Assembly: GCF_004099695.1 (NCBI RefSeq)
Contig: NZ_SCHL01000002.1
Location: 208,351-272,350 of the forward strand
Direction of reading: 5' to 3'
DNA length: 64,000 nucleotides
From: Methanosarcina sp. MSH10X1
GTDB lineage: Archaea > Halobacteriota > Methanosarcinia > Methanosarcinales > Methanosarcinaceae
In this document: piece after piece, positions 22,445 through 44,925 of the stretch
Layout of the letters: each line of letters begins with the position of its first letter
Numbering within the stretch: the first letter of the stretch is position 1
Translations under genes and position numbers: made by a program
Notes under the pieces: model-generated
The model's input: only the letters and a program-made list of their open reading frames with translations
What the model was told of the DNA's origin: nothing
Databases searched by the model: none

Positions 22445-23491
22445 CTACTCTATATGGATCCCAATAAAGTCTACCCCTACCTCCTTTTTACCTGAAGCAT
22501 GACCAAGGACTGAAAACTTGACCATAAGTTTCTCAAGTTCGTCAGTATTTCTTATGTAAGTTACATTTTGAGTTGAATCATAGAGAGTATAGATATTTTT
22601 GTTACTTGCTATGCAAGCGTTAAAATTGTGATATTCTTCCAAATTACCTCCACTCTCGGAAGCTATTTGTGTCCACCTAGAGCCATTGTAGACTTCCAGT
22701 GTTAGATTACTAAAGCTGTTGTCACCATTTGTCTGGTAGATTATTTTTAGCTGAACTTTTGAAAAATCTAATATGCCCATCTCATCCGCATCTAGCCCAA
22801 ATGAATAGGTATGATAAATACATTCTGAACTTGAAACCGGAGTGTTTATATAAGGCCCTCCGATTGCGCTAACCAGTTCCATAGGCAACAGCCCTGAAGG
22901 TGCAGTGCTGTCATAAACACTCCCATATGGGTAAGGAGTTATCCAGTCTGGGAGTTTCCCTGGACCTCGCTGAAGCACTGTTCTCTGGATTGCCTGCTGG
23001 GAGGGCATATCCATAAAGAACATATCTATAGAGTCCTTGCTAGTAAGAATTAATGGATTCCCTTTATCGCTGATAATATCATCAGGGTAAATTATAATGC
23101 GGTCTCCTAGAGTGAAGACATTGTCAGCGGAGTTATTTCCATCGGGTTTCAGGATTTTAACTTTGGAGTCGGACATACTATAAGTCCTGCTAAACTCATC
23201 TGGCGTCCCGTAGTTGCCGGAAAGTACTACACTGATTGCGGATTTGTCAATAGCTTCTCCCCCGCTGTGGACAATCTGTACAGTATGGACAGTGCCATTA
23301 AGTATACTGATTTTCTCACGCAGGTCGATATGAGGCGTATGTGGGGGGTCTACAGCCCCCCCATCAGAAAAGACGGTCAGGGCTATTGTGGAAAAGGATA
23401 GGACGACTATACTTATCATAAGCAGTTGCCCATACACTTCTGAAACTGCCTGGCAGTTCTTGCCAATTGTTCCGCATTTTTTACCCTCCAC
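22445..23491 (-). CDS. pilin-like protein, non-AUG start family member 1
   Basis: About 349 residues. There is no ATG at the N-terminus. GAGGTG is followed after 6 nt by ATC (23494-23492) and after 9 nt by GTG (23491-23489); another GTG at 23503 overlaps the ribosome binding site. I use GTG 23491 as the canonical choice. The N-terminus NCQAVSEVYGQLLMISIVV is a class III prepilin helix, then IVHSGGEAIDKSAISVVLSGNYG, related to the HxGGDxI motif of the short pilins. It is about as long as, and closely similar to, the gene at 32.4-33.4 kb. It diverges from the pilin cassettes across a 300-bp spacer. Confidence 0.78.
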   Translation of the reverse strand: MEGKKCGTIGKNCQAVSEVYGQLLMISIVVLSFSTIALTVFSDGGAVDPPHTPHIDLREKISILNGTVHTVQIVHSGGEAIDKSAISVVLSGNYGTPDEFSRTYSMSDSKVKILKPDGNNSADNVFTLGDRIIIYPDDIISDKGNPLILTSKDSIDMFFMDMPSQQAIQRTVLQRGPGKLPDWITPYPYGSVYDSTAPSGLLPMELVSAIGGPYINTPVSSSECIYHTYSFGLDADEMGILDFSKVQLKIIYQTNGDNSFSNLTLEVYNGSRWTQIASESGGNLEEYHNFNACIASNKNIYTLYDSTQNVTYIRNTDELEKLMVKFSVLGHASGKKEVGVDFIGIHIE

Positions 23492-23660
23492 GATAAAAAC
23501 CACCTCGTAAAAATTTTACTTGCAACTTCCTAAACTATCTCTAATGGGATATTAATCTGACTGTCTAAGAAAACTTCATAAAGTAAGACCGCCAATAAAT
23601 ATCTGACTTAAATAATTTGGCTTGTTAGGATAGAGAATGTTTTATCTCTGTCAGCAAAAA

Positions 23661-23792: not shown

Positions 23793-24293
23793 ATGGTTAT
23801 TAAGAAATTATTCATGAATAACAAAGCAGTTTCCCCGGTTATCGGTGTCATCCTGATGGTTGCAATTACCGTCATCCTCGCCGCCGCTATCGGATCTTCC
23901 GTCTTTGGACAGGGAACTGCCGAATCCGCACCGCAGGCAAATCTTGACATTGAATCAGCCGGTATTAGTAGTGAAATAGCATATGCAAAGTTCGAACACC
24001 TTGGTGGAGACCCTATTAATTTTGCTGCCTCTGCGACAAGAGTAGTGGCATCTGTTAATGGTGCTACTTCTCAGGAACTTGATGTTACTGACAATGAAGA
24101 TCTTACTACTCCTCTTACTACCCTGGCTGTAGGTGAAGTTCAGAAAATTGAATTGATGACTTCTAGTGGAAATCTTAAGGACAATTCTGAAGGTGCGACC
24201 GCCACTGGTATCGCTTCTGGCGACATCGTCAACATAAAAGTTATTGATATAAAAACGAATCAGTTGATCTGTGATAGGGATATAAGGTTTTAA
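23793..24293 (+). CDS. archaeal type IV pilin 1 (tandem array)
   Basis: 166 residues. MVIKKLFMNNK is the basic leader, and KAVSPVIGVILMVAITVILAAAIGSSVFGQG is the class III signal and helix, cut by an archaeal prepilin peptidase just before AVSPV. After the helix the sequence diverges from its siblings apart from EHLGGDPINF (about residues 69-78) and the C-terminal block DIVNIKVIDIKTNQLIC. It is the first of five tandem cassettes, each with its own TATA box, hairpin leader and terminator (unit spacing 815-850 bp). It likely forms or decorates an adhesive pilus assembled by the ATPase/TadC pair downstream. A single near-terminal Cys could make inter-subunit contacts. Confidence 0.9.
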   Translation: MVIKKLFMNNKAVSPVIGVILMVAITVILAAAIGSSVFGQGTAESAPQANLDIESAGISSEIAYAKFEHLGGDPINFAASATRVVASVNGATSQELDVTDNEDLTTPLTTLAVGEVQKIELMTSSGNLKDNSEGATATGIASGDIVNIKVIDIKTNQLICDRDIRF

Positions 24294-24303
24294 ATAGAAA
24301 GTT

Positions 24304-24332
24304 AAGCACCGTTTATAGGTGCTTCTCTTCTT
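24304..24332 (+). terminator. Terminator of pilin cassette 1
   Basis: AAGCACC (24304-24310) pairs with GGTGCTT (24318-24324), followed by CTCTTCTTT. The stem sequence is shared with cassettes 2, 3 and 5. Confidence 0.6.
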
Positions 24333-24508
24333 TATAGTCAATTGCTTTTTTGTAAACCTTACTTTTATTTTTCAAACACGAGTCCTTGCATAATTATCTG
24401 CATTTTTAGGATTGTAATTAAATCGCTTTTTTGGAAATTCAGTGTCTGCTGATATTAACTTTACCATAAGGATTGCCAATAAAAATAAATATTCACGCCC
24501 ACAAAAAA

Positions 24509-24516
24509 TTTAAATA
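24509..24516 (+). promoter_or_regulatory. TATA box of pilin cassette 2
   Basis: TTTAAATA replaces the TTTATATA of cassettes 1, 3 and 4 in an otherwise conserved block. The weaker box may give lower expression. Confidence 0.5.
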
Positions 24517-24583
24517 GAAACGAAGGGTAAGATTATATGCAGTCAAAAAATTTATGACTGTTCAGTTATGCATTTAAGTCATT

Positions 24584-24632
24584 AAAAGTATTCGGCAGGC
24601 ATTTCTGTCCGAGTACCTTTAGCCAGGAGGGA
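24584..24632 (+). promoter_or_regulatory. Conserved leader hairpin and ribosome binding site, cassette 2
   Basis: Same architecture as cassette 1, with changes in the loop and inner stem (GGCAGGCATTTCTGTCC). CCAGGAGGG follows the 3' arm. Confidence 0.55.
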
Positions 24633-24639
24633 GAAGTAT

Positions 24640-25104
24640 ATGGATTTAAAGAAATTGTTTATGAATAACAAAGCAGTTTCCCCGGTTATCGGTGTCATCC
24701 TGATGGTTGCAATTACAGTCATCCTCGCAGCCGCTATCGGATCTTCCGTGTTTGGACAGGGAACTGCACAATCAGCACCGCAGGCAAATCTCAATATTCA
24801 AGCAAACGGCGTTCCAACTGATGCTGGACTTGCAACTATAAAAATCGAGCACCTTGGTGGCGACCCAATTAATTTCGATATCGACGTTACAAAAATTATG
24901 GTATCTATTGATGGCGGAGACTCTGAACAAGTTTCACCTGGTAGTATTACTACCATTAGTGTTGGTGATGTCAAGAAACTCGATATAAAGGATACTTCTA
25001 GCACACCTGCAGTTATTGCTATCGCTCCTGGCAATACCGTTAATATTAAAGTAATTGATATAGCGACCAGCCAGCTCATTTGCGACAAGGATATTAGGTT
25101 CTAA
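24640..25104 (+). CDS. archaeal type IV pilin 2 (tandem array)
   Basis: 154 residues, the shortest of the five. MDLKKLFMNNK precedes the invariant AVSPVIGVILMVAITV helix. The variable domain (about residues 45-130) differs from pilin 1 except for IEHLGGDPINF and the terminal block NTVNIKVIDIATSQLIC. The helix-coding DNA is almost identical to cassette 1 even at third codon positions, while the distal part is not, which points to gene conversion or strong constraint on the 5' end. Transcribed alone, judging from its own promoter and a strong terminator. Confidence 0.9.
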   Translation: MDLKKLFMNNKAVSPVIGVILMVAITVILAAAIGSSVFGQGTAQSAPQANLNIQANGVPTDAGLATIKIEHLGGDPINFDIDVTKIMVSIDGGDSEQVSPGSITTISVGDVKKLDIKDTSSTPAVIAIAPGNTVNIKVIDIATSQLICDKDIRF

Positions 25105-25114
25105 AAATGAGTCT

Positions 25115-25144
25115 AAGCACCTCAAGAAGGTGCTTTTCTCTTTC
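25115..25144 (+). terminator. Terminator of pilin cassette 2
   Basis: AAGCACCT (25115-25122) pairs perfectly with AGGTGCTT (25128-25135), followed by TTCTCTTTCTTT. Confidence 0.65.
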
Positions 25145-25325
25145 TTTATTCAGCTTGATTCTTCCGGAATCTTCTCGTTGTCTCTTAGGCACGAGTACTT
25201 GTAAATTACTTCCAATCCTTGAGATTCTGGTGAGGACGATTTTTCAAAACCGATTTTCTGCTTTATTATTACTGCTAGGAATGTTACCACTAAATAAAAA
25301 ATTACCAACCATCATCTGGAAAAAA

Positions 25326-25333
25326 TTTATATA
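25326..25333 (+). promoter_or_regulatory. TATA box of pilin cassette 3
   Basis: TTTATATA followed by GAAACGAAGGATAAGA, nearly identical to the promoter block of cassette 4. Confidence 0.65.
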
Positions 25334-25397
25334 GAAACGAAGGATAAGATGGTGTACTGTTAAAAAAGTTGAAACTGTCTAACTATGCATTTAGGGT

Positions 25398-25446
25398 TAA
25401 AAGTATCTGGCAGGCTATCCTGTCCGAGTATCTTTAGCCAGGAGGG
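25398..25446 (+). promoter_or_regulatory. Conserved leader hairpin and ribosome binding site, cassette 3
   Basis: GGCAGGCTATCCTGTCC core as in cassettes 1 and 5. Here CTGGC in the 5' arm matches GCCAG immediately before GAGGG, so the alternative pairing that touches the ribosome binding site is five pairs long. Confidence 0.6.
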
Positions 25447-25454
25447 AGAAACAT

Positions 25455-25955
25455 ATGGAACTTAAGAAATTATTTATGAATAATAAAGCAGTTTCCCCGG
25501 TTATCGGTGTCATCCTGATGGTTGCAGTAACGGTAATTCTTGCCGCTGCAATCGGATCTTCCGTTTTTGGACAGGGAAATGCAGAATCCGCACCGCAGGC
25601 AAACCTCGATATTCAAGCAGCCGGTTTTGTTATTACTGGTACTTCCACTTCTCCTGCTTATGAAGGATATGCAACATTCGAACACCTAGGTGGAGACCCG
25701 ATTAATTTCGCTGCCTCTGCAACAAAAGTTGTAGCTTCTGTTAATGGTGGAGATTCCCAAGAGCTTAAAGCTACTGTTCTTGATACCTTCGAAGCAGGTG
25801 ATGTTGAGAAAATCAAACTGGCAGTGTCTAGTGGAATTCTTAAGGATGAGTCTCGTGCGACACCAAAAGGCATCTGCTCTGGCGATATTGTCAATATCAA
25901 AGTTATTGATAAGAAAACAAATCAGCTTATATGCGATAAAGATCTAAGATTTTAA
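25455..25955 (+). CDS. archaeal type IV pilin 3 (tandem array)
   Basis: 166 residues: MELKKLFMNNK, then the shared helix with one conservative change (MVAVTV), a variable domain with a Thr/Ser-rich insert (VITGTSTSPAYEG), FEHLGGDPINFAASATKVVASVNGG, and the terminal SGDIVNIKVIDKKTNQLIC block. Its central part (about residues 70-95) is closest to pilin 1, which suggests a more recent common origin or conversion between those two. It has an additional Cys (KGICSGD) besides the near-terminal one, so an intramolecular disulfide is possible here and not in its siblings. Confidence 0.9.
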   Translation: MELKKLFMNNKAVSPVIGVILMVAVTVILAAAIGSSVFGQGNAESAPQANLDIQAAGFVITGTSTSPAYEGYATFEHLGGDPINFAASATKVVASVNGGDSQELKATVLDTFEAGDVEKIKLAVSSGILKDESRATPKGICSGDIVNIKVIDKKTNQLICDKDLRF

Positions 25956-25963
25956 AAAGGCTT

Positions 25964-25990
25964 AGCACCCTATAGGTGCTTTCCTCTTTC
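25964..25990 (+). terminator. Terminator of pilin cassette 3
   Basis: AGCACC (25964-25969) pairs with GGTGCT (25975-25980), followed by TTCCTCTTTC. Confidence 0.55.
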
Positions 25991-26173
25991 TTTTATTCGG
26001 CTTGCTTTTTTTCCAGGGGGTTCTCGTTATTTCTCAGGCGGGATTTTTATAGAACTATTTTCGATTTGTATGACTTTGAAATTTATTCTTAGAAAGTCGC
26101 GTTCCTACAACATACTTTAGATCAAAAATATTTACCAGTAAACATAGATGTTGTTCAAAACATCGAGAAAAAA

Positions 26174-26181
26174 TTTATATA
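26174..26181 (+). promoter_or_regulatory. TATA box of pilin cassette 4
   Basis: TTTATATA in the conserved block, 131 nt before the start codon. Confidence 0.65.
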
Positions 26182-26247
26182 GAAACGAAGAATAAGAAGA
26201 TATTGAAATAAAAAATTTTAGATTTTTTAACTATACATTTCAGTCGT

Positions 26248-26297
26248 TAAAAGTATCTGGCAGGCCGTCCTGTCCTAATACCTTTAGCTCGGAGGGA
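26248..26297 (+). promoter_or_regulatory. Conserved leader hairpin and ribosome binding site, cassette 4
   Basis: The loop differs (GGCAGGCCGTCCTGTCC) but the stem is kept. The sequence before the ribosome binding site is GCTCGGAGGG, so the alternative CTGG/CCAG pairing seen in cassettes 1 and 3 is lost here. Confidence 0.55.
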
Positions 26298-26304
26298 GAA
26301 ACAC

Positions 26305-26793
26305 ATGGATTTTAAGAAACTTTTTATTAATAATAAAGCAGTTTCCCCGGTTATCGGTGTCATCCTGATGGTTGCGATTACCGTAATTCTTGCCGCCGCC
26401 ATCGGATCTGCCGTATTTGGACAGGGAACTGCCGAACCCGCACCGCAGGCAAATCTTGGTATTGAAATAGTCCGTGATTATATTAACTATGGTGGCGATG
26501 AAGGTTCAGATCCGGCTATTGTAAGATTCCAACATCTGGGCGGAGACCCAATTAACTTCCAAAAAACCGATAAAACAAAAATCCTGGTTACTGTTAGTGA
26601 TACTACTTATGTAGTCCCCGGAAAAACTGTTAACAAACAACTTAACGTGTTAAGTGTTGGTGATGTTAAGACCCTGGAGTTAATAGGTAAAGATAATGCT
26701 AATATCCCTATTCCTGCCGGCAGTACTGTCAACATCAAAATAGTCGATATTAAGACGAATCAGCTTATTTTCGATGGAGAACTTAGGTTTTAA
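26305..26793 (+). CDS. archaeal type IV pilin 4 (tandem array, no C-terminal Cys)
   Basis: 162 residues: MDFKKLFINNK and the shared class III helix, with AVFGQGTAEPAPQ after it. The variable domain is the most divergent (NYGGDEGSDPAIVRFQ), but QHLGGDPINF and the terminal STVNIKIVDIKTNQLI remain. The near-terminal Cys present in the other four is replaced by Phe (LIFDGELRF), so any function of that Cys, such as a disulfide or subunit link, is lost in this subunit. Its 5' coding DNA is nearly identical to that of pilin 5. Confidence 0.9.
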   Translation: MDFKKLFINNKAVSPVIGVILMVAITVILAAAIGSAVFGQGTAEPAPQANLGIEIVRDYINYGGDEGSDPAIVRFQHLGGDPINFQKTDKTKILVTVSDTTYVVPGKTVNKQLNVLSVGDVKTLELIGKDNANIPIPAGSTVNIKIVDIKTNQLIFDGELRF

Positions 26794-26806
26794 ATAAAAA
26801 GTTGAT

Positions 26807-26829
26807 TGCCTTTTAAAGGCATTTTTTTC
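26807..26829 (+). terminator. Terminator of pilin cassette 4
   Basis: Palindrome TGCCTTTTAAAGGCA (26807-26821) followed directly by seven T. Its stem sequence is unlike the AGCACC/GGTGCT type of the other four cassettes. Confidence 0.6.
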
Positions 26830-27005
26830 TTTTCTATTTAATTTACTTTTCCAGAAATTCCTTTTTATTTCTACGAAAGAATCTTCACATAATTACTCTA
26901 GATTCCTAAGATTCTAATAATCCCTCTTAAAAATTGAGTTTTCTCTTATATTTGATAGAAATGTTACTATTAAGTAAAAGTTATTTTTTTATCATTAAGA
27001 AAAAA

Positions 27006-27013
27006 CTTATATA
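27006..27013 (+). promoter_or_regulatory. TATA box of pilin cassette 5
   Basis: CTTATATA within AAAAACTTATATAGAAAAGA, aligned with the TATA boxes of the other cassettes. Confidence 0.6.
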
Positions 27014-27076
27014 GAAAAGAAGAATAAAAGAGTAAACAGTTAAAATATTTTTATTCCAACTATAAGTTTGAGGCGT

Positions 27077-27126
27077 TAAAAGTTTCTGGCAGGCTATCCT
27101 GTCCGAATACCTTTTATCAGGAGGAA
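27077..27126 (+). promoter_or_regulatory. Conserved leader hairpin and ribosome binding site, cassette 5
   Basis: AAAGTTT and GGCAGG pair with CCTGTCC and ATACCTTT; the CTAT loop is as in cassettes 1 and 3. TCAGGAGG follows. Confidence 0.6.
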
Positions 27127-27133
27127 GAAATCC

Positions 27134-27637
27134 ATGGATTTTAAGAAATTTTTTATTAATAACAAAGCAGTTTCCCCGGTTATCGGTGTCATCCTGATGG
27201 TTGCGATTACCGTAATTCTTGCCGCCGCCATCGGATCTACCGTATTTGGACAGGGAACTGCACAAATCGCACCGCAGGCGAACATACACATTCAAGCAGC
27301 AGGACTTAGCAATGAAAATGTCGGATCTATAAAAGTGGAGCATCTCGGTGGGGACCCGATTGATTTCGCTAACTCAAATACAAAAATTCTGGCGTCCGTT
27401 AATGGCGGCAGCTCTGTTGAGCTTACCCCTGATAAGATTGTTACCGATACTACCACTACTCTCAGTGTTGGTGAAGTTAGAAAAGCCGAATTGAAGACTA
27501 CCGAGACAAGTAATCCAAAGCTTAGAGATAATTCTGGCGAAGATATCAGTGATCTTGCTTCCGGGGATACCGTAAATATCAAAATAATTGATGTAAAAAC
27601 CAACCAGCTCATTTGTGACAGGGATCTAAGGTTCTAA
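27134..27637 (+). CDS. archaeal type IV pilin 5 (tandem array)
   Basis: 167 residues: MDFKKFFINNK, the invariant AVSPVIGVILMVAITV helix, a variable region with VEHLGGDPIDFANSNTKILASVNGG, and the terminal SGDTVNIKIIDVKTNQLIC block. An unusually Thr-rich middle (about residues 97-125) could be a glycosylation target on the pilus surface. It is the last cassette; 650 bp of AT-rich sequence without a credible gene separates it from the convergent TadC-like gene. The single near-terminal Cys is kept. Confidence 0.9.
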   Translation: MDFKKFFINNKAVSPVIGVILMVAITVILAAAIGSTVFGQGTAQIAPQANIHIQAAGLSNENVGSIKVEHLGGDPIDFANSNTKILASVNGGSSVELTPDKIVTDTTTTLSVGEVRKAELKTTETSNPKLRDNSGEDISDLASGDTVNIKIIDVKTNQLICDRDLRF

Positions 27638-28318: not shown

Positions 28319-30307
28319 TCAAACAAGGAAAGTAAAAGCCAGATAAGTAATTATCACCATGCTGACGCTGTATTTCAGGCCCAGATATACAGAACCCTGT
28401 CCCATCTTTCCGGCAATAAGTCCCGAAGTAACAGCCTGCACCAGGGCTGAATGGAACATGAGCATATTATACTCCTCTATATTGAAATAGCTGTTTCCTA
28501 TTCCTCCAGTTGCCCCTGACTGGGAAGCAGTTGTGAATGCGGCGGTTTGCGGGAAAAAATCGGTAGCCAGAATATAGACTATGAAAAGGAAGACAAAAAA
28601 GGATACATAGATAGTGACCACGTAGATCACCATTTGTGACGAGCGCTCTTTTTTCAACCCCTGTTCGGTCTTAGCCTGTGAAGCAGTGATGGAGAGTACA
28701 CTTTTAAGGTCACTTGTAGATTCGTTTGCTTTTACCAGAATATGAATAATCCTGCTTGAAGACGCTGTTCTGATACTGTTCTCAAGTTTCATGAGAGCCC
28801 TTGAAGTGGAAGTGCCCCAGGAAATATCTTCCTTTAATTTCATGAGTTCTTTACTTAATATGCCCATTTTGGACTCTGCTATTAATTTTAACGAATTTGA
28901 AAGCAAAATTCCGGAATCGTTCATACTGGAGAGGTTCCTTAGAAGATCAGGCATTCTTTCGTCTATCTTGCGTATTCTCCAGGCATTGATCTCATAAAAT
29001 ATGATGAAAGGAATAAGAAGAATGACAGTAAAGATAATAATATAGTCATCAACTGAGGTAGCCAGCATAATAGCACCTTCACTGACATGGTTAAAATCTA
29101 TGTTCAGCAGAGGGCTAAAACTGAGACGATTTACAAGATTTTTTGGAAGATTGGTGAGATAAAATAATCCCACCGGAACTGCTATAAAAAATGTGTATTT
29201 TGGTTCGTCCCGGAGGGTTCTGTAGGGATTTAGCAGCATGTCTTTTACATGGGAGAGCTGCCTGTATAGCCTGTATTTCTTACTCCGCTCTTCTTCCTGC
29301 TCTGTAGTGAGCCCCGATTCTATCTCCGGGATGTCGGAAAGGTTTATTGAAAAACTGGAGACCTTACCTCTCTTAGGATTGAAAGAAAGTTCGCCTACAG
29401 TATCCAGCATTACCATATAGAGCAGGGTTGCAACAGGCAATATCACATAGATAAGCATGTAAAGAACCTGGGTTGAAGCAGGTTTGAAGAACTGCAGTAC
29501 AACAAGGGTCACCATTATGAAAAGAGGGCCTGCAACCAGTGCTGTCACATAAACTTCGGCAAGAACATCAAGTCTCTGCAATAGACTTCTGTTCGCCAGC
29601 TCTGCCATATGCTGATATTGGTCAGCCTTGCTTTTTATATACTCATTAATGGTTCCGCTGCTTGAAATAATGATTAACCCGTCAATAAAGTCCTTAAAAA
29701 CGTCTGAAGGAGTACGTTCTTTTGCAGATTTGAGAGCGCTTATAAAGTCTTTGCCAAGATAGTCCATATCCCTCACAATATAGGATATTTCCTCTGCGCT
29801 CGCACCAAATATATGGGTATACATGTTAATGGACCTGAATACATCATAAACCGACATGCCTCCTTTCGTCAGAGCATACATATAGGTTATTGACGGAAGC
29901 ATGGATTTATCTATACAGGCTCGGCGGTTATTTGACTGAAAGTAGGGGTAACTGTATACCAGAAAAAATACAATAAGAGAACATATAATGAACACTACAG
30001 CAGCGGTTAGAATTGCAAGAGGGTAGACATATTTTCCTTCATAACCGGCACTTGTAGAACTCAGGAAAAGGCTAATGCGGGAAACCGGGTCACCAAAAAT
30101 CTTCAGTCCCAGCGATAAGCCGAAAATCCCTCCAGCAGTTCCTGCTATTATTGAATACATTAAGGCAGAAGCCATGTACTGGTCCACTGTCATGGGAATA
30201 TGGGATTGGCGTATCTTTATTTTTAAATCTTTAAAACTTTCTTTATTTTTGTAAAAAAAACCGCCAAAGTATCGGTATGCCAGTTTATCCGCAGCAGTAT
30301 AAATCAT
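28319..30307 (-). CDS. TadC/FlaJ-like pilus assembly membrane protein
   Basis: 662 residues, with two type II secretion F-like halves. The first half has cytoplasmic KGGMSVYDVFRSI and membrane segments around residues 60-130 and 245-300. A cytoplasmic linker (LTTEQEEERSKKYRLYRQLSHVKDML) follows, then a second half with LSSMNDSGILLSNSLKLIAES and final membrane segments near 550-660. This two-domain form is usual for archaeal pilus and archaellum platforms. It forms the inner platform that couples the ATPase to pilin insertion. Its ATG overlaps the ATPase stop codon (ATGA), and GGGGGGAG lies before it, so the two are translationally coupled. Confidence 0.88.
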   Translation of the reverse strand: MIYTAADKLAYRYFGGFFYKNKESFKDLKIKIRQSHIPMTVDQYMASALMYSIIAGTAGGIFGLSLGLKIFGDPVSRISLFLSSTSAGYEGKYVYPLAILTAAVVFIICSLIVFFLVYSYPYFQSNNRRACIDKSMLPSITYMYALTKGGMSVYDVFRSINMYTHIFGASAEEISYIVRDMDYLGKDFISALKSAKERTPSDVFKDFIDGLIIISSSGTINEYIKSKADQYQHMAELANRSLLQRLDVLAEVYVTALVAGPLFIMVTLVVLQFFKPASTQVLYMLIYVILPVATLLYMVMLDTVGELSFNPKRGKVSSFSINLSDIPEIESGLTTEQEEERSKKYRLYRQLSHVKDMLLNPYRTLRDEPKYTFFIAVPVGLFYLTNLPKNLVNRLSFSPLLNIDFNHVSEGAIMLATSVDDYIIIFTVILLIPFIIFYEINAWRIRKIDERMPDLLRNLSSMNDSGILLSNSLKLIAESKMGILSKELMKLKEDISWGTSTSRALMKLENSIRTASSSRIIHILVKANESTSDLKSVLSITASQAKTEQGLKKERSSQMVIYVVTIYVSFFVFLFIVYILATDFFPQTAAFTTASQSGATGGIGNSYFNIEEYNMLMFHSALVQAVTSGLIAGKMGQGSVYLGLKYSVSMVIITYLAFTFLV

Positions 30308-31995
30308 GCTCCCCCCTCTTGAGCAGCCATGTCCTTTATCATAGTCTCCAGGGTATCATTTTCTATACACTCCATAACCATCTTAGAATAGCTCTGGTAT
30401 GCCTGAACTACAATGGACACCTGGATATAATCCCTTATGTTTCTTTCATACATGTACGTCAGGATTTTTCTACGGTTGTCCATCTCAGTTCTCAACTGAG
30501 TGGTATCCCAGCCTCGAGAATACATAATCTCCTGTGCAGTGTGAGAGTCCCCGACTTTGATGAAATAATCTTCTGAGGGCTCCCAGTTGAAGAGCTCATT
30601 TATGCCAAGATCCCCTGTTTCGGGGTCAACGTTGAGGACTTCAACGAGGCTCTGGGTTCTTCGAACTCTTTTCTCTCCGATGTACGCCTGCTTCTGAATG
30701 CAGAGTATATCAAGAGACTGCAGCATAACATTTGGTACATTTATTGGTTCGTGCGTGAGCCTGTTTATGACAGTCTGCACATCTCCTGCGTGCATAGTTG
30801 AGCTTGTTGCGTGCCCTGTTGACATTGCCTGGAAAAGAGTAAGAGCTTCACTGCCTCTCACCTCACCCACAATAATGAAATCCGGGCGCTGCCTGAGAGA
30901 AGCTTTCAGGAGGTCAAACATGGAAATTTCTCCCGTTGAGTCTCCGGAAAAACTCTGCCTTGCAATCCCGGAAACCCAGTTGTTGTGATAGAGCAGGAGT
31001 TCCCGTGTATCTTCTATGGAGACTATCTTGGCTGTTGAGGGCATAAATAGGGAGGTAGCATTGAGCATAGAAGTTTTTCCCGACGCTGTTCCTCCCGCAA
31101 AAAGAATATTGTGACCGTTTTCAATGACCAGCCAGAGATATACGAGCATGTCAAGGTCGCATGTTTTATAGCTAAGCAGGTCTATCGGAGTAATTGGGTC
31201 CTTCCTGAATTTACGGATAGTAAAAGAACTGCCTCTTGGAGTAATTTCCCTTCCTAAAACAGCCTGAAGCCTCGATCCTTCCAGAAGTCTTGCATCCACT
31301 ATTGGCTGGCTTACAGACACGTGCTTGTTATTCAACTGGCACATTTTAACTACAAGGGCATCAAGTTCTTCATCTTTAAAATGAATATTACTCTCAATAT
31401 TGAGATATTTTGTATGATAGATGAAAAGGGGGACATTTGCCCCGTCACACGAAATATCTTCTATATAAGCATCATAAAGAAGAGGATTGATTTTTTCGTA
31501 GCCTAACATATTTCTTTTAAGATAATATATGATTTTTTGAAAGGTTGAAGTTGAGATCTCAGCCCTGTAGTTTTCGAGAAGGAAGAGGGTCTTATCCACA
31601 AGAAATGCATCCTTTTCGGATATGGAATTTGTAGAACCCAGAACCAGGATATCCTGGAAATCCTCATAAATCCTCTCTAGAAGCTCTTTCTCAAACTTTG
31701 TAAGCGAAGGTTCGATAAGTCTGTAGTATCTTGTTCTGCGGTCTTCCAGAATCGATACAAAATTATAAGGCTCCTGAAGCCAGTATCTTTCGATTTCTCT
31801 AAACCCATCAGGCACTGTAAAATCTACAAGAGGTCCGTCCTTTTCAGGATCATAAGCTGGCAGAACTCTCAGTGGCTTGTCAAAGTAAACTTTAGCCTTC
31901 TTTATGACCACTGAAATGGAGGTGTAATCACCTTTTTTCCCCAGTAATTCCGAAATAAACTTACTCTTCACTAACATTTGTTTTACTTCATCCAT
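30304..31995 (-). CDS. type II/IV secretion ATPase (TadA/VirB11/PilB-like)
   Basis: Start taken at ATG 31995 (MDEVKQMLVKSK) because GGGGG lies 8 nt upstream; ATG 32010 in the same frame has no site. The result is 563 residues. Walker A is LFAGGTASGKTSMLNA, the Asp box IVSIEDTRELLL, Walker B FIIVGEVRGSEALTLFQAMSTGH, and STMHAGD the His box. The N-terminal region (about residues 1-230) carries the DISCDGANVPLFIYH segment common in archaeal VirB11-like ATPases. It hydrolyses ATP to drive pilus assembly with the overlapping TadC-like protein. It is the only assembly ATPase in the window and the pilin genes flank it on both sides; no prepilin peptidase is nearby. Confidence 0.92.
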   Translation of the reverse strand: MDEVKQMLVKSKFISELLGKKGDYTSISVVIKKAKVYFDKPLRVLPAYDPEKDGPLVDFTVPDGFREIERYWLQEPYNFVSILEDRRTRYYRLIEPSLTKFEKELLERIYEDFQDILVLGSTNSISEKDAFLVDKTLFLLENYRAEISTSTFQKIIYYLKRNMLGYEKINPLLYDAYIEDISCDGANVPLFIYHTKYLNIESNIHFKDEELDALVVKMCQLNNKHVSVSQPIVDARLLEGSRLQAVLGREITPRGSSFTIRKFRKDPITPIDLLSYKTCDLDMLVYLWLVIENGHNILFAGGTASGKTSMLNATSLFMPSTAKIVSIEDTRELLLYHNNWVSGIARQSFSGDSTGEISMFDLLKASLRQRPDFIIVGEVRGSEALTLFQAMSTGHATSSTMHAGDVQTVINRLTHEPINVPNVMLQSLDILCIQKQAYIGEKRVRRTQSLVEVLNVDPETGDLGINELFNWEPSEDYFIKVGDSHTAQEIMYSRGWDTTQLRTEMDNRRKILTYMYERNIRDYIQVSIVVQAYQSYSKMVMECIENDTLETMIKDMAAQEGGA

Positions 31996-32381
31996 AACTA
32001 CATCCCCCATTTTTTAATCAAGTTATATAAGCTCAACTTCTTTTAAAAACTTTCTACTATTCATTGCAGTATAAATATATTTTAAGGAGCTGATTCTGGA
32101 GGTAAAGCCTGATCAATCTCTCTGCACAATGCATACTCTGTCGAAAGGGTGAATGAATTTAGCTAGAAAGTAATTTGTCACCTTCTTTCTATAAGGAAAA
32201 CTAAAAGTATCGAAAAACAGGTCTTATTTCGGATTAAAGAAGCTTATGATAATGCGTAAGATGGCAATTAACTTAGAAAGTCACTTCAGAAATCATTTTC
32301 TCAGATCTTTTGAGCAGTAAAAGGAAAATTTTAAGTTTTCTCTACTCTCTGCCTCAGCCTTGAATTTCGTAAACCAGAATT
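31996..32381. other. Intergenic spacer
   Basis: No gene recognised. AAATATATTTTAAGG (about 32074-32088) could be a promoter for the minus-strand ATPase operon. Confidence 0.35.
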
Positions 32382-33440
32382 TTATTGGAGCTCTTCTACG
32401 TGAACTCCTACAAAATCAACCCTAATGGTTTTTCCGCTGTGTTCGTTTGCATGTTCAGAGACCGAAAACCTGACCCGGAGCTTTTCAAGTTCGCCGGTAT
32501 TTTTTATGTACTCAGGTTGATTATCAGTTAGGTTATAGAGTTGGTAGTTTACATAGTAGTATTCTTTGTCGTGGTGGTATTCTTTCATCTCACCTCCATC
32601 GTTGGAATTTATTTTTGTCCAGTTAGAGCCGTCAGTAGATACTTCCAGTTTTAGCTTATCAGCGCTGTTGTCATGAAATGAATAGATTATTTTTAGCTGG
32701 ATTTCTGAAATACTTGAAATGCCCATCTCATCCGCATCTATGCCAAACTCATACACTTCGTACCACTCTGAATCTGTTGGAAGAGGAGCTTCTATAAAAA
32801 CTCCATCATCGATCGTACCAAGCAACTCCATGGGCAACCACTCTGAAGGTGTGGAACTATCATAAATACTACCATATGGGTAAGGAGTTATCCAATCCGG
32901 AATGTTCACTGGAACTGGCTGGAGTACAGTTTTCTGGATCACCTGTTGAGACGGTATATGCACGATGAACAGGTCTATGGAATTCTTGCTGGTGAGAGAA
33001 ACTCCACTTCCTTTAGTATTAATTATTATGCGGTCTCCAAGAGTCAGAACATTATCAGTGGAGTTATTTCCATCAGGTTTCTGGATTTTAACTTCGGAGT
33101 CTGACATACTATACGTCCTGCTAAACTCATCTGGCATCCCATAATTGCCTGAAAGTATTACATTGATTGCTGTTTTGTCAATGGCTTCTCCCCCAGCATG
33201 GACAATCTGCACAGTATTATTGACTACATAAACGCTTTCACGAAAGTCAACATGAGGGATATGTTCCGGGATTCCAAATCCTTCAGAATATACCGTAAGG
33301 GCTATTCCAGATAAAGCCAAAACTACTACAGTTATCATTAACATTTGACCTATTATCTCTGAGACTGCATTGCAGTCCCGGCTAATTACTCTGCATTTAG
33401 AACCCTTACAAATAATACCACCTTCTAAAAATTGCCCCAC
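32382..33440 (-). CDS. pilin-like protein, non-AUG start family member 2
   Basis: Up to 352 residues. The outermost possible start is GTG 33440, which lies inside a tandem repeat. The best ribosome binding site, AAGGTG, is followed after 5 nt by ATT (33413-33411), which aligns with ATC and ATA in its paralogues. The prepilin helix is NAVSEIIGQMLMITVVVLALSGIALTVY. IVHAGGEAIDKTAINVILSGNYGMPDEFSRTYSMSDSEV and most of the remainder match the protein at 22.4-23.5 kb. The C-terminal half has a lectin-like pattern (ELQLKIIYS, WTKINSNDGG). The pair brackets the pilin/ATPase locus, which suggests duplication within it. Confidence 0.78.
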   Translation of the reverse strand: MGQFLEGGIICKGSKCRVISRDCNAVSEIIGQMLMITVVVLALSGIALTVYSEGFGIPEHIPHVDFRESVYVVNNTVQIVHAGGEAIDKTAINVILSGNYGMPDEFSRTYSMSDSEVKIQKPDGNNSTDNVLTLGDRIIINTKGSGVSLTSKNSIDLFIVHIPSQQVIQKTVLQPVPVNIPDWITPYPYGSIYDSSTPSEWLPMELLGTIDDGVFIEAPLPTDSEWYEVYEFGIDADEMGISSISEIQLKIIYSFHDNSADKLKLEVSTDGSNWTKINSNDGGEMKEYHHDKEYYYVNYQLYNLTDNQPEYIKNTGELEKLRVRFSVSEHANEHSGKTIRVDFVGVHVEELQ

Positions 33441-33492
33441 TTCTAAAAATTACCCGGCATCTAAAAATTGTCCGGTTCCTGAAAATTGTTCT
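33421..33492. repeat. Four tandem 18-bp repeats at the translation start
   Basis: TCTAAAAATT recurs at exact 18-bp spacing (TAAAAATT cores at 33426, 33444 and 33462, and a degenerate one at 33480). On the coding strand each unit reads like CAATTTTTAGAAG followed by GTGG or similar, and the last unit supplies the AAGGTGG ribosome binding site of the gene at 32382. A TATA-like AATTATAAATT lies just upstream, near 33496-33509. The rest of the spacer to 33843 has no gene. Confidence 0.75.
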
Positions 33493-42134: not shown

Positions 42135-42503
42135 ATGGCAAGTGGGATACAGAACAACAAACATTACCAGTGTCCTGTGGAAGCAACCCTTGAGGTAATC
42201 GGGGGCAAATGGAAGCCAGTCATTCTCTGGCAGTTGAGAACCGAAAAATTGCGTTTTTCAGGGCTCCAGCAAAGCATGCAGGGCATTTCTCCTAAAATGC
42301 TTACGAAACAGCTCAGGGAACTTGAGGGAAATGGGCTCATTCTCAGGAAGATTTATCCTGAAATCCCACCCAGAGTTGAATATTCTCTAACCGAATTTGG
42401 CAAAACCGTACTTCCGGTTCTGGATGCTCTTTGCAGATGGGGAAACGAGTATCTCGGAAGGGAATGCACACTGGATAAACAACAACTGCCTGATAAAAAA
42501 TAA
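42135..42503 (+). CDS. HxlR-family transcriptional regulator
   Basis: 122 residues with a winged helix-turn-helix: CPVEATLEVIGGKWKPVILWQL, SGLQQSMQGISPKMLTKQLRELEGNGLI, PPRVEYSLTEFGKTVLPVLDALCRWG. The conserved Cys near residue 13 is the residue that senses oxidants or electrophiles in several HxlR proteins (for example HypR and QorR). Divergent from the Isf/nitroreductase/ABM group, which is the obvious target. The spacer carries CTTATATACTATACATAC (about 42076-42093), a TATA box with near-symmetrical TAC/GTA elements where the regulator may bind its own promoter. Confidence 0.88.
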   Translation: MASGIQNNKHYQCPVEATLEVIGGKWKPVILWQLRTEKLRFSGLQQSMQGISPKMLTKQLRELEGNGLILRKIYPEIPPRVEYSLTEFGKTVLPVLDALCRWGNEYLGRECTLDKQQLPDKK

Positions 42504-42887
42504 ATTGAGATCTCTGGTATCAGGTTTTGATGCTGAGAAAAATGTGCATCTTCTAATTTTTCTGTAAAATACAGATCTTAAGAAATTTTTACTTAGTAAA
42601 TCCCGTATTTGGAGATTTATTTTTCCCTAACTCACAAAACTTGATAACAAATCTACGACATATTCGCGATACTGCTGGATCATTATTCTATACAATTTAA
42701 TTTATTAATTCCTTTTATCTCTAATTTTTAAAACATTTTTATTGTACATATCTTGCAAATTTTATCTTGTTATTTTGGAACAATTGGTATCGCAAAATCA
42801 GAGTTAATAGTTTTCTTGAACGGTTAAATTAATATCAAAGAGTCGCAATTTAATACTCAAAATTAAATTTTGACAAGGTGATTTTTT
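42504..42887. other. AT-rich intergenic spacer
   Basis: No gene seen. Several TATA-like stretches (for example TACAATTTAATTTATT near 42693-42708); none stands out. It ends with the AAGGTG ribosome binding site of the next gene. Confidence 0.35.
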
Positions 42888-44324
42888 ATAGCTGAGGGTA
42901 AAAAGTCCGGGTTACTTGGAAACAAATGCCAGGCAGCCTCAGAAATATACGCGCTGATGTTGATGGTTTTGATTACGATCATACTTGCTTCGTCAATAAT
43001 GTATCCTTTTATCCCGGAAAGTCCTCCCATTGCAAATCTCTTTATCGAAGCCCATAATTTTACTCAAAGTGAGATGGTATCAAGCAATGAGACGACATCA
43101 GGCAATGAGGCAGTTCCTGGCGATTATCTACTAGAGGCTTCTTCAGGTTCTGGGGGCAGTATTTTTCCCTCTGGAAGGATATATGTGCCCGCCGGTAGCA
43201 ACGCACCTTTCAATATGACGCCTGCTGCCAATTATAAAGTTCTTGACGTGCTGGTGGACGGGGCATCCGTAGGGCCAGTCTACCAATACACCTTAAATAA
43301 TGTGTCCTCCAACCACAGTATCTATGTGAGTTTTACCGTGGATTTCACTGTAATAAACAACAATACAGTAGTACCGAAGGGGAATTTTACGGTCAATGCA
43401 ACTGTACTTGGGTCTGCGTTTACGAGGGACATTTGGGAGGACGGTCATTGGGAGAATGGTCATTGGGTAAAGGGTCATTCGGTAACGGTACCGTTTCCGG
43501 TTACATGCCGCTTTAGGTTAGGAGACTATCCTTACAATCCCTGGGGAGATTACACAAATCCGTCTAAAGGAAATATTAATGATGGAAAAAATCCTCGCTT
43601 CTGGCAGTCTAACAACACTTCTACGGCAAATACGTCTGTAATGGTTGAAGCTTGCTCTTGGGAATACAACCAAAATAAAAAAATTCTTGAAGTTAACACT
43701 TCGATTAATTCGCCCAATTTGAAAGTTCTTAAGAATAGAGACAATGTTCCTAATATCCCCGGATTTCAAGACCAAGATTCAATTGAAGACTTTGTAATGA
43801 AATATACTAATAATGGGAGTATCAAGCTCAAGGAAAATGAAGCTATATATCTTTTTGAGCTGGGCAATACAGACCTGAAAAGTGCTGGTGCTGATTTTCA
43901 AGATCTTGTCATTTTGATTTCAATAAAAGGAGCAGATATCCCACAGTCTGAAGTTGTATCTCAGGATGAGGTTTACCCGAGTGAAACCTTGGATGAAACT
44001 TCGAACGAAGCCTCGGATGGAAACCCGAACAAAATTTCTAATGAAATGACTCTCAAACTCGTAATCGAGCACCGTGGAGGAGATACAATTAATTTCAAAT
44101 CCCCTGAGGAGACAAGGGTTATACTTCAGAAAGGATATGATCAACGTTATCTTAATTTTACGGAGCTTGGAATCTTCAAAAGCGGAGATCGAGCTACTTT
44201 GATCCCTAAAGAGTACGGCACTAATGAAAAGCTTAATTTTAGTCAAGGGGATCAATTATTCATTAAAATAATAGATGTCCCAAGTAGATCTTTAATCTAC
44301 TCCAGAAGTACTACGATTAAATGA
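42888..44324 (+). CDS. pilin-like protein with inserted repeat domain, non-AUG start family member 3
   Basis: The first in-frame ATG (42957) would cut into the prepilin helix. The conserved N-terminus (EGKKSGLLGNKCQAASEIYALMLMV) extends back to ATA 42888, 7 nt after AAGGTG, with no ATG, GTG or TTG in frame. About 478 residues. After the helix come a Ser/Asn-rich stretch, an InlB-type repeat domain (SGGSIFPSGRIYVPAGSN, LNNVSSNHSIYVSF; about 85-150), and a second beta domain. The C-terminal part returns to the short-pilin pattern (VIEHRGGDTINF, LFIKIIDVPSRSLIYS). It thus looks like a pilin with extra domains inserted. No assembly genes adjoin. One T fewer in the T6 run would restore a GTG start, so a frameshift is the alternative. 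Confidence 0.72.
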   Translation: MAEGKKSGLLGNKCQAASEIYALMLMVLITIILASSIMYPFIPESPPIANLFIEAHNFTQSEMVSSNETTSGNEAVPGDYLLEASSGSGGSIFPSGRIYVPAGSNAPFNMTPAANYKVLDVLVDGASVGPVYQYTLNNVSSNHSIYVSFTVDFTVINNNTVVPKGNFTVNATVLGSAFTRDIWEDGHWENGHWVKGHSVTVPFPVTCRFRLGDYPYNPWGDYTNPSKGNINDGKNPRFWQSNNTSTANTSVMVEACSWEYNQNKKILEVNTSINSPNLKVLKNRDNVPNIPGFQDQDSIEDFVMKYTNNGSIKLKENEAIYLFELGNTDLKSAGADFQDLVILISIKGADIPQSEVVSQDEVYPSETLDETSNEASDGNPNKISNEMTLKLVIEHRGGDTINFKSPEETRVILQKGYDQRYLNFTELGIFKSGDRATLIPKEYGTNEKLNFSQGDQLFIKIIDVPSRSLIYSRSTTIK

Positions 44325-44338
44325 AATCTATTAATGGG

Positions 44339-44368
44339 GCTGAGTCTAAGAAGCTCAGCTCAAAAAAA
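44339..44368 (+). terminator. Hairpin after pilin-like gene
   Basis: GCTGAG (44339-44344) pairs with CTCAGC (44354-44359). An A-run, not a T-run, follows. The remaining spacer to 44925 contains no gene I can support. Confidence 0.4.
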
Positions 44369-44925
44369 ATAATGTTTGCTTGTGTCAGATTGGCTGCGAG
44401 CAGAATGCTTATTTTTCTTTAGAAGCATACATTTCAAAAAGATGGTAGTTTGAAAATCCTAAATTAGGAAAACGGAATTATACTTAATGCATAAAAATTA
44501 ACTTTAAATTTACAGAAAATTAGTAACAGTGCTGAAATATGCCACGATCTCGAAAATAGACTAATTAGAGAATAGATTAATAGTATAAAGAGCAGACCAC
44601 ATAAACATTGATTTTAACTGGTAGTTTTGTCATTTTACCTTGTTGTGAGTTATCCGAGTAATCTTAGAAAGGTTTTAAATAACAAACACCACACAACAAG
44701 TAAAAGTAAATCCTATTTGTATTTTATATTAATACTGGGTTCTACTTTTATTCGGAAGGTATGACAATTAGAGAATTTGCCTACGCTAGTTTATAAAAGT
44801 CAGCATTATTTCTTTAACAATATTTTCAGAAGGAATCTAACCTTTTGAAAACTTAATTTCTAAACTATCGGCAAACAGGAAGGCACTGAGAACATCGGAA
44901 ATCCGAGAGATACCAGGTTACACGT

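Follow-up and report, generated by a model that had tools for sequence, protein, structure and literature searches.

The window analysed, a 64,000-nucleotide stretch of the genome of Methanosarcina sp. MSH10X1, carries three paralogues of one Methanosarcina type IV pilin-like family, termed gene 1, gene 2 and gene 3 (Table 1). The assignment is based on sequence comparison and on matches to PF07790 (Pilin_N), which score 52.5, 49.2 and 26.7 bits for genes 1, 2 and 3, respectively (E-values 9.5e-14, 1e-12 and 1.1e-5), all above the curated cut-off of 25.2 bits. Searches of NCBIfam and the PDB returned no informative matches. As read from the sequence, all three proteins share with the archaeal type IV pilins of Pilin_N a short charged leader, an A↓(V/A)SE-type processing site and a hydrophobic helix. 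Members of Pilin_N otherwise have a canonical start codon, whereas genes 2 and 3 are without one. Gene 2 is located just upstream of a pilB/tadC pair (pilB, 30304-32010; tadC, 28319-30307). Gene 3 is included in a segment of about 2.3 kb (42500-44840) that lies between conserved neighbours and is present in MSH10X1 and in the relatives G029 and G015; the segment is missing at this locus in G006, G002, G013 and G014. Five PilA-like Pilin_N genes stand in a row on the plus strand at 23793-27637; those of their starts that were read are ATG codons behind AGGAGG-type SD sites, unlike what is seen in genes 1-3.

Table 1. Pilin-like genes of the window and the elements of their start regions
Feature	Position	Strand	Description	Evidence
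Gene 1	22445..23491	-	Archaeal type IV pilin-like protein (Pilin_N), 348 aa, start GTG 23491	PF07790; conserved start column
ATC before gene 1 start	23492..23494	-	Spacer codon, not start	Variable column in relatives with a good start after it
SD-like GAGGTG of gene 1	23501..23506	-	9 nt before GTG 23491	
Gene 2	32382..33413	-	Paralogous pilin-like ORF, open from ATT 33413 for 343 codons, canonical start column lost	
ATT	33411..33413	-	Candidate non-canonical start of gene 2	5 nt after AAGGTG
Three imperfect tandem copies, AATTTTTAGA(A)G-type unit	33419..33469	-	MSH10X1 gene 2 only	Alignment with G006 and G029
Gene 3	42888..44324	+	Pilin-like ORF, 478 codons, without canonical start ahead of the prepilin helix	
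SD-like AAGGTG of gene 3	42875..42880	+	7 nt before ATA	AAGGTGATTTTTTATAGC identical in G029
ATA	42888..42890	+	Candidate start codon of gene 3	Triplet shared with G029
GCT	42891..42893	+	At the ancestral start column of gene 3	

The start regions read GAGGTG GTTTTT ATC GTG GAG GGT in gene 1 (minus strand), AAGGTG GTATT ATT TGT AAG GGT in gene 2 (minus strand) and AAGGTG ATTTTTT ATA GCT GAG GGT in gene 3 (plus strand). In each, an AUH codon (ATC 23494, ATT 33413 and ATA 42888) follows the SD-like site at a spacing of 6, 5 and 7 nt, respectively, and lies exactly 18 codons ahead of the Glu in the landmark QAVSE, NAVSE or QAASE. Both features are present as the original prediction described them. 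The meaning attached to them there, a deliberately weak start common to the three genes, is a separate matter, on which the relatives bear.

A homologue search of 31 Methanosarcina genomes (denoted by G numbers) gave 28 gene-1-type sequences, and the start regions were aligned on the landmark Glu motif. Directly after the AUH column, 22 of these read GTG, two TTG (G007 and G018) and one ATG (G014); this next column is non-canonical in 3/28, namely MSH10X1 gene 2, its orthologue in G006 and a copy in G011. The AUH column itself holds ATC in most copies; ten copies have GTC, TTC, CTC, AAC, ACC or TCA there, followed by a good start. Two copies from a second genus of this family, those with a readable start (G036 and G037), have TTA or TCA, then GTG. 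The column confined to ATG, GTG and TTG is therefore the start codon, and the AUH column is a spacer. Since the start column is conserved in the relatives, gene 1 is read as starting at GTG 23491, an ordinary start. This GTG had been considered more weakly placed than the ATC; it adjoins the ATC on its 3' side, occupies the conserved start column and is spaced 9 nt from GAGGTG, and the same conservation removes the ATC as the start of gene 1. In the G011 copy, ATC GTG is replaced by ATC GCG and the ORF is intact (omega 0.50; neutral expectation 7.2 stops). As a third start-less case this copy was set aside as not clean, because GTG and TTG codons lie in frame shortly before this position.

An ATH triplet occupies the AUH column in 18 of the 28 gene-1-type copies, mostly with a good GTG directly after, so homology is enough to give three paralogues the same AUH position, which is no surprise. 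The shared position, as the alignment has it, reflects common descent and not shared AUH starts. The ancestral signal of the family would have been AAGGTG-(about 6 nt)-ATC-GTG-GAG-GGT, in which translation starts at GTG and the spacer ends with the ATC-type codon. Retention of AUH after start loss is not significantly above chance: AUH stands in the column in all of the roughly four independent losses, and in 18/28 of the family members as well. That AUH starts in all three genes form a conserved weak-initiation device keeping minor pilins scarce would agree with the presence of AUH in the same column of genes 1-3, each with an SD-like site. However, the conserved start of the relatives is the next codon, one downstream (GTG in gene 1), and the AUH column is not conserved in working relatives; we regard such a device as extremely improbable. 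Conservation of AUH together with the SD-like site in orthologues, which would have favoured it, is not found: the column is variable in the gene 1 family, and in gene 3 the ATA recurs in G029 alone, in a decayed copy.

In genes 2 and 3, the alignment places non-canonical codons in the start column (TGT, 33410-33408, in gene 2 and GCT in gene 3), and shows the canonical codon to have been lost from both, with relatives in related states (TGG; GCG). The remains at the gene 2 locus in G006 and G029 both read ATT TGG and both are decayed, the G006 copy by frameshifts and the G029 copy by large deletions; the MSH10X1 copy is intact. As all three read ATT TG(T/G), the start column of gene 2 would have been lost before MSH10X1, G006 and G029 split. 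After the loss, gene 2 may have fallen back on ATT or on a newly arisen GTG at 33440. The tandem units before gene 2 are roughly 18 nt long and SD-bearing; the SD-like AAGGTG belongs to the last, and the in-frame GTG 33440 arises in the middle one, so that ATT is not the sole choice of start. The option of a GTG start for gene 2 had been noted originally, and it stands to the extent that GTG 33440 is in frame and could serve; the position lacks an SD-like site, and the start column proper is lost. A present start of gene 2 at GTG 33440, resulting from the triplication of the 5' unit, would make the leader nine residues longer than from ATT. The ORF is open from this codon and the triplication is specific to MSH10X1, but the GTG sits inside a duplicated copy of the SD-like sequence with no such site ahead of it, and we consider this start a real possibility, though less likely than not. 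On the gene 2 branch to MSH10X1, omega is 0.42 (2ΔlnL 4.3 against 1), and no stop is seen where 5.0 are expected under neutrality (0.8% of simulated runs stop-free). A pilin remnant at about 187.5 kb of G010 C1 follows a tandem repeat, AAATTTACCAG(A/G), which runs into the reading frame.

Gene 3 has, as predicted, no in-frame ATG, GTG or TTG before codon 24, which is ATG 42957 inside the helix, and the ATA is preceded, three codons earlier, by an in-frame TGA (TGA TTT TTT ATA). Seven copies of gene 3 occur in the genus, MSH10X1 included, and the locus is syntenic in MSH10X1, G029 and G015C97. The start reads ATC GTG in G030, G005 and G015C38 and TTC ATG in G015C97; it is lost in G003 (ATC GCG), G029 (ATA GCG) and MSH10X1 (ATA GCT). 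MSH10X1 and G029 have in common a T run that is one T longer, the ATA, and GC replacing GT, a combination that suggests a single start loss in their common ancestor. From the same comparison, G003 is a separate loss. The gene 3 family is decaying across the genus: frameshifts or stops are found in five of the seven copies (G029, G003, G005, G015C38 and G015C97), and those of MSH10X1 and G030 are intact.

A one-base frameshift in the T run had been offered as the alternative for gene 3. Translation would then begin at the GTG inside AAGGTG, the frame being restored by slippage or by correction of a sequencing error, and the T5 of G030 does put this GTG in frame. Against it, the GTG has no SD site of its own, and a run of six T residues is short for slippage. 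A one-base error of sequencing or assembly in gene 3 was considered and is unlikely, because the independent genome G029 carries the same T6-ATA-GC. We therefore give a start at this GTG very little weight.

Selection was assessed with a codon model with branch-specific omega on five- and six-taxon trees, the frames being taken from tblastn pieces. For the MSH10X1 branch of gene 3, omega is 0.26-0.28 (2ΔlnL 34-45 against 1) for either placement. In the first 110 codons (codons 3-110), omega is 0.18 (2ΔlnL 8.2) with MSH10X1 next to G029. Neutral evolution over the MSH10X1 branch would be expected to produce 12.3 stops; none is seen, and 0/2000 simulated runs were stop-free. For the first 110 codons alone, 1.9 stops are expected and 13% of runs were stop-free. 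The neutral distance between MSH10X1 and G029 is 2.12 per codon in gene 3 versus 2.03 in the adjacent helicase, so the gene 3 copies look like vertical orthologues. The site-wise likelihoods are mixed: codons 1-60 favour MSH10X1 with G029, and several later blocks favour MSH10X1 with G015C97. Selection on the later part may therefore partly predate the start loss, through recombination, and the mixed signal makes the age of that loss uncertain. With this reservation about the tree signal, the data support a gene 3 ORF kept open under purifying selection after the loss of its start, and the ORFs of genes 2 and 3 both having stayed open since. As the gene 3 ORF stayed open and apparently under purifying selection, gene 3 was probably still translated after the loss. 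The claim of non-canonical starts is supported in part for gene 3, which has no canonical start, is open to doubt for gene 2 with its GTG 33440, and is not supported for gene 1 with its GTG 23491.

These results have to be weighed against decay. Genes 2 and 3 may be young pseudogenes that lost the start and make no useful protein, with stops not yet accrued or with the intact part renewed by recombination. Relatives are broken at the same loci (G029 and G006 for gene 2; G029, G003, G005 and both G015 copies for gene 3). Gene 3 is dispensable, being missing from the same locus in G006, G002, G013 and G014. With five of the seven gene 3 copies broken, decay is the usual fate and the start-less copy may be no more than the latest pseudogene, and the mixed tree signal would allow a 3' part acquired by recombination after the start loss. 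However, the lost state is common to MSH10X1 and G029 for gene 3, and to MSH10X1, G006 and G029 for gene 2, and so seems to predate the species split; 12 stops in gene 3 and 5 in gene 2 would be the neutral expectation from then on, none is seen, and omega is well below 1. Pseudogene status is a serious possibility that we rate short of an even chance.

In the explanation that we judge best, and which has about an even chance of being right, genes 2 and 3 lost their starts from the ancestral GTG signal, which gene 1 keeps, and gene 3 now initiates at AUA. With the GTG gone, the SD-like AAGGTG of gene 3 would direct ribosomes to start at the near-cognate AUA, 7 nt beyond it, lengthening the prepilin leader by one residue relative to the ancestral one, probably with low efficiency. 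AUA initiation is a plausible and the simplest route to translating gene 3. Low-efficiency starts of this kind would have arisen as a side effect when dispensable minor pilins lost their start codons, and not as designed control. The stronger version, in which gene 3 functions in this archaeon from an AUA start and has been under selection since a GUG loss that preceded the split from the G029 lineage, with gene 2 likewise using AUU, we put forward only tentatively, at less than an even chance.

Recorded switches of start codon to AUU are very rare, with 1/61,358 for ancestral AUG and 1/5,080 for ancestral GUG (PMC5622118). Gene 3 resembles the rare prokaryotic AUU and CUG starts in having an SD-like site and a near-cognate codon; it differs in that the candidate start is AUA, in an archaeon, after loss of a GTG. 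In Ribo-seq of Methanosarcina mazei, a relative of MSH10X1, unannotated small ORFs start with ATG, TTG, GTG and, in about 5%, CTG, and the passages of that report on these starts do not mention AUA, AUU or AUC (PMC11456600). A limited literature search found no archaeal AUA start.

For start-codon oddities in general, the family indicates that a conserved column restricted to ATG, GTG and TTG marks the start and that an adjacent near-cognate codon can be a mere spacer. Gene finders that accept only ATG, GTG or TTG would cut gene 3 back to ATG 42957, at the cost of the prepilin leader and the first part of the helix. Translation of gene 3, if it occurs, would offer a natural example of an archaeal gene initiated at AUA, for which the loss of the usual start can be deduced and relatives are at hand for comparison.
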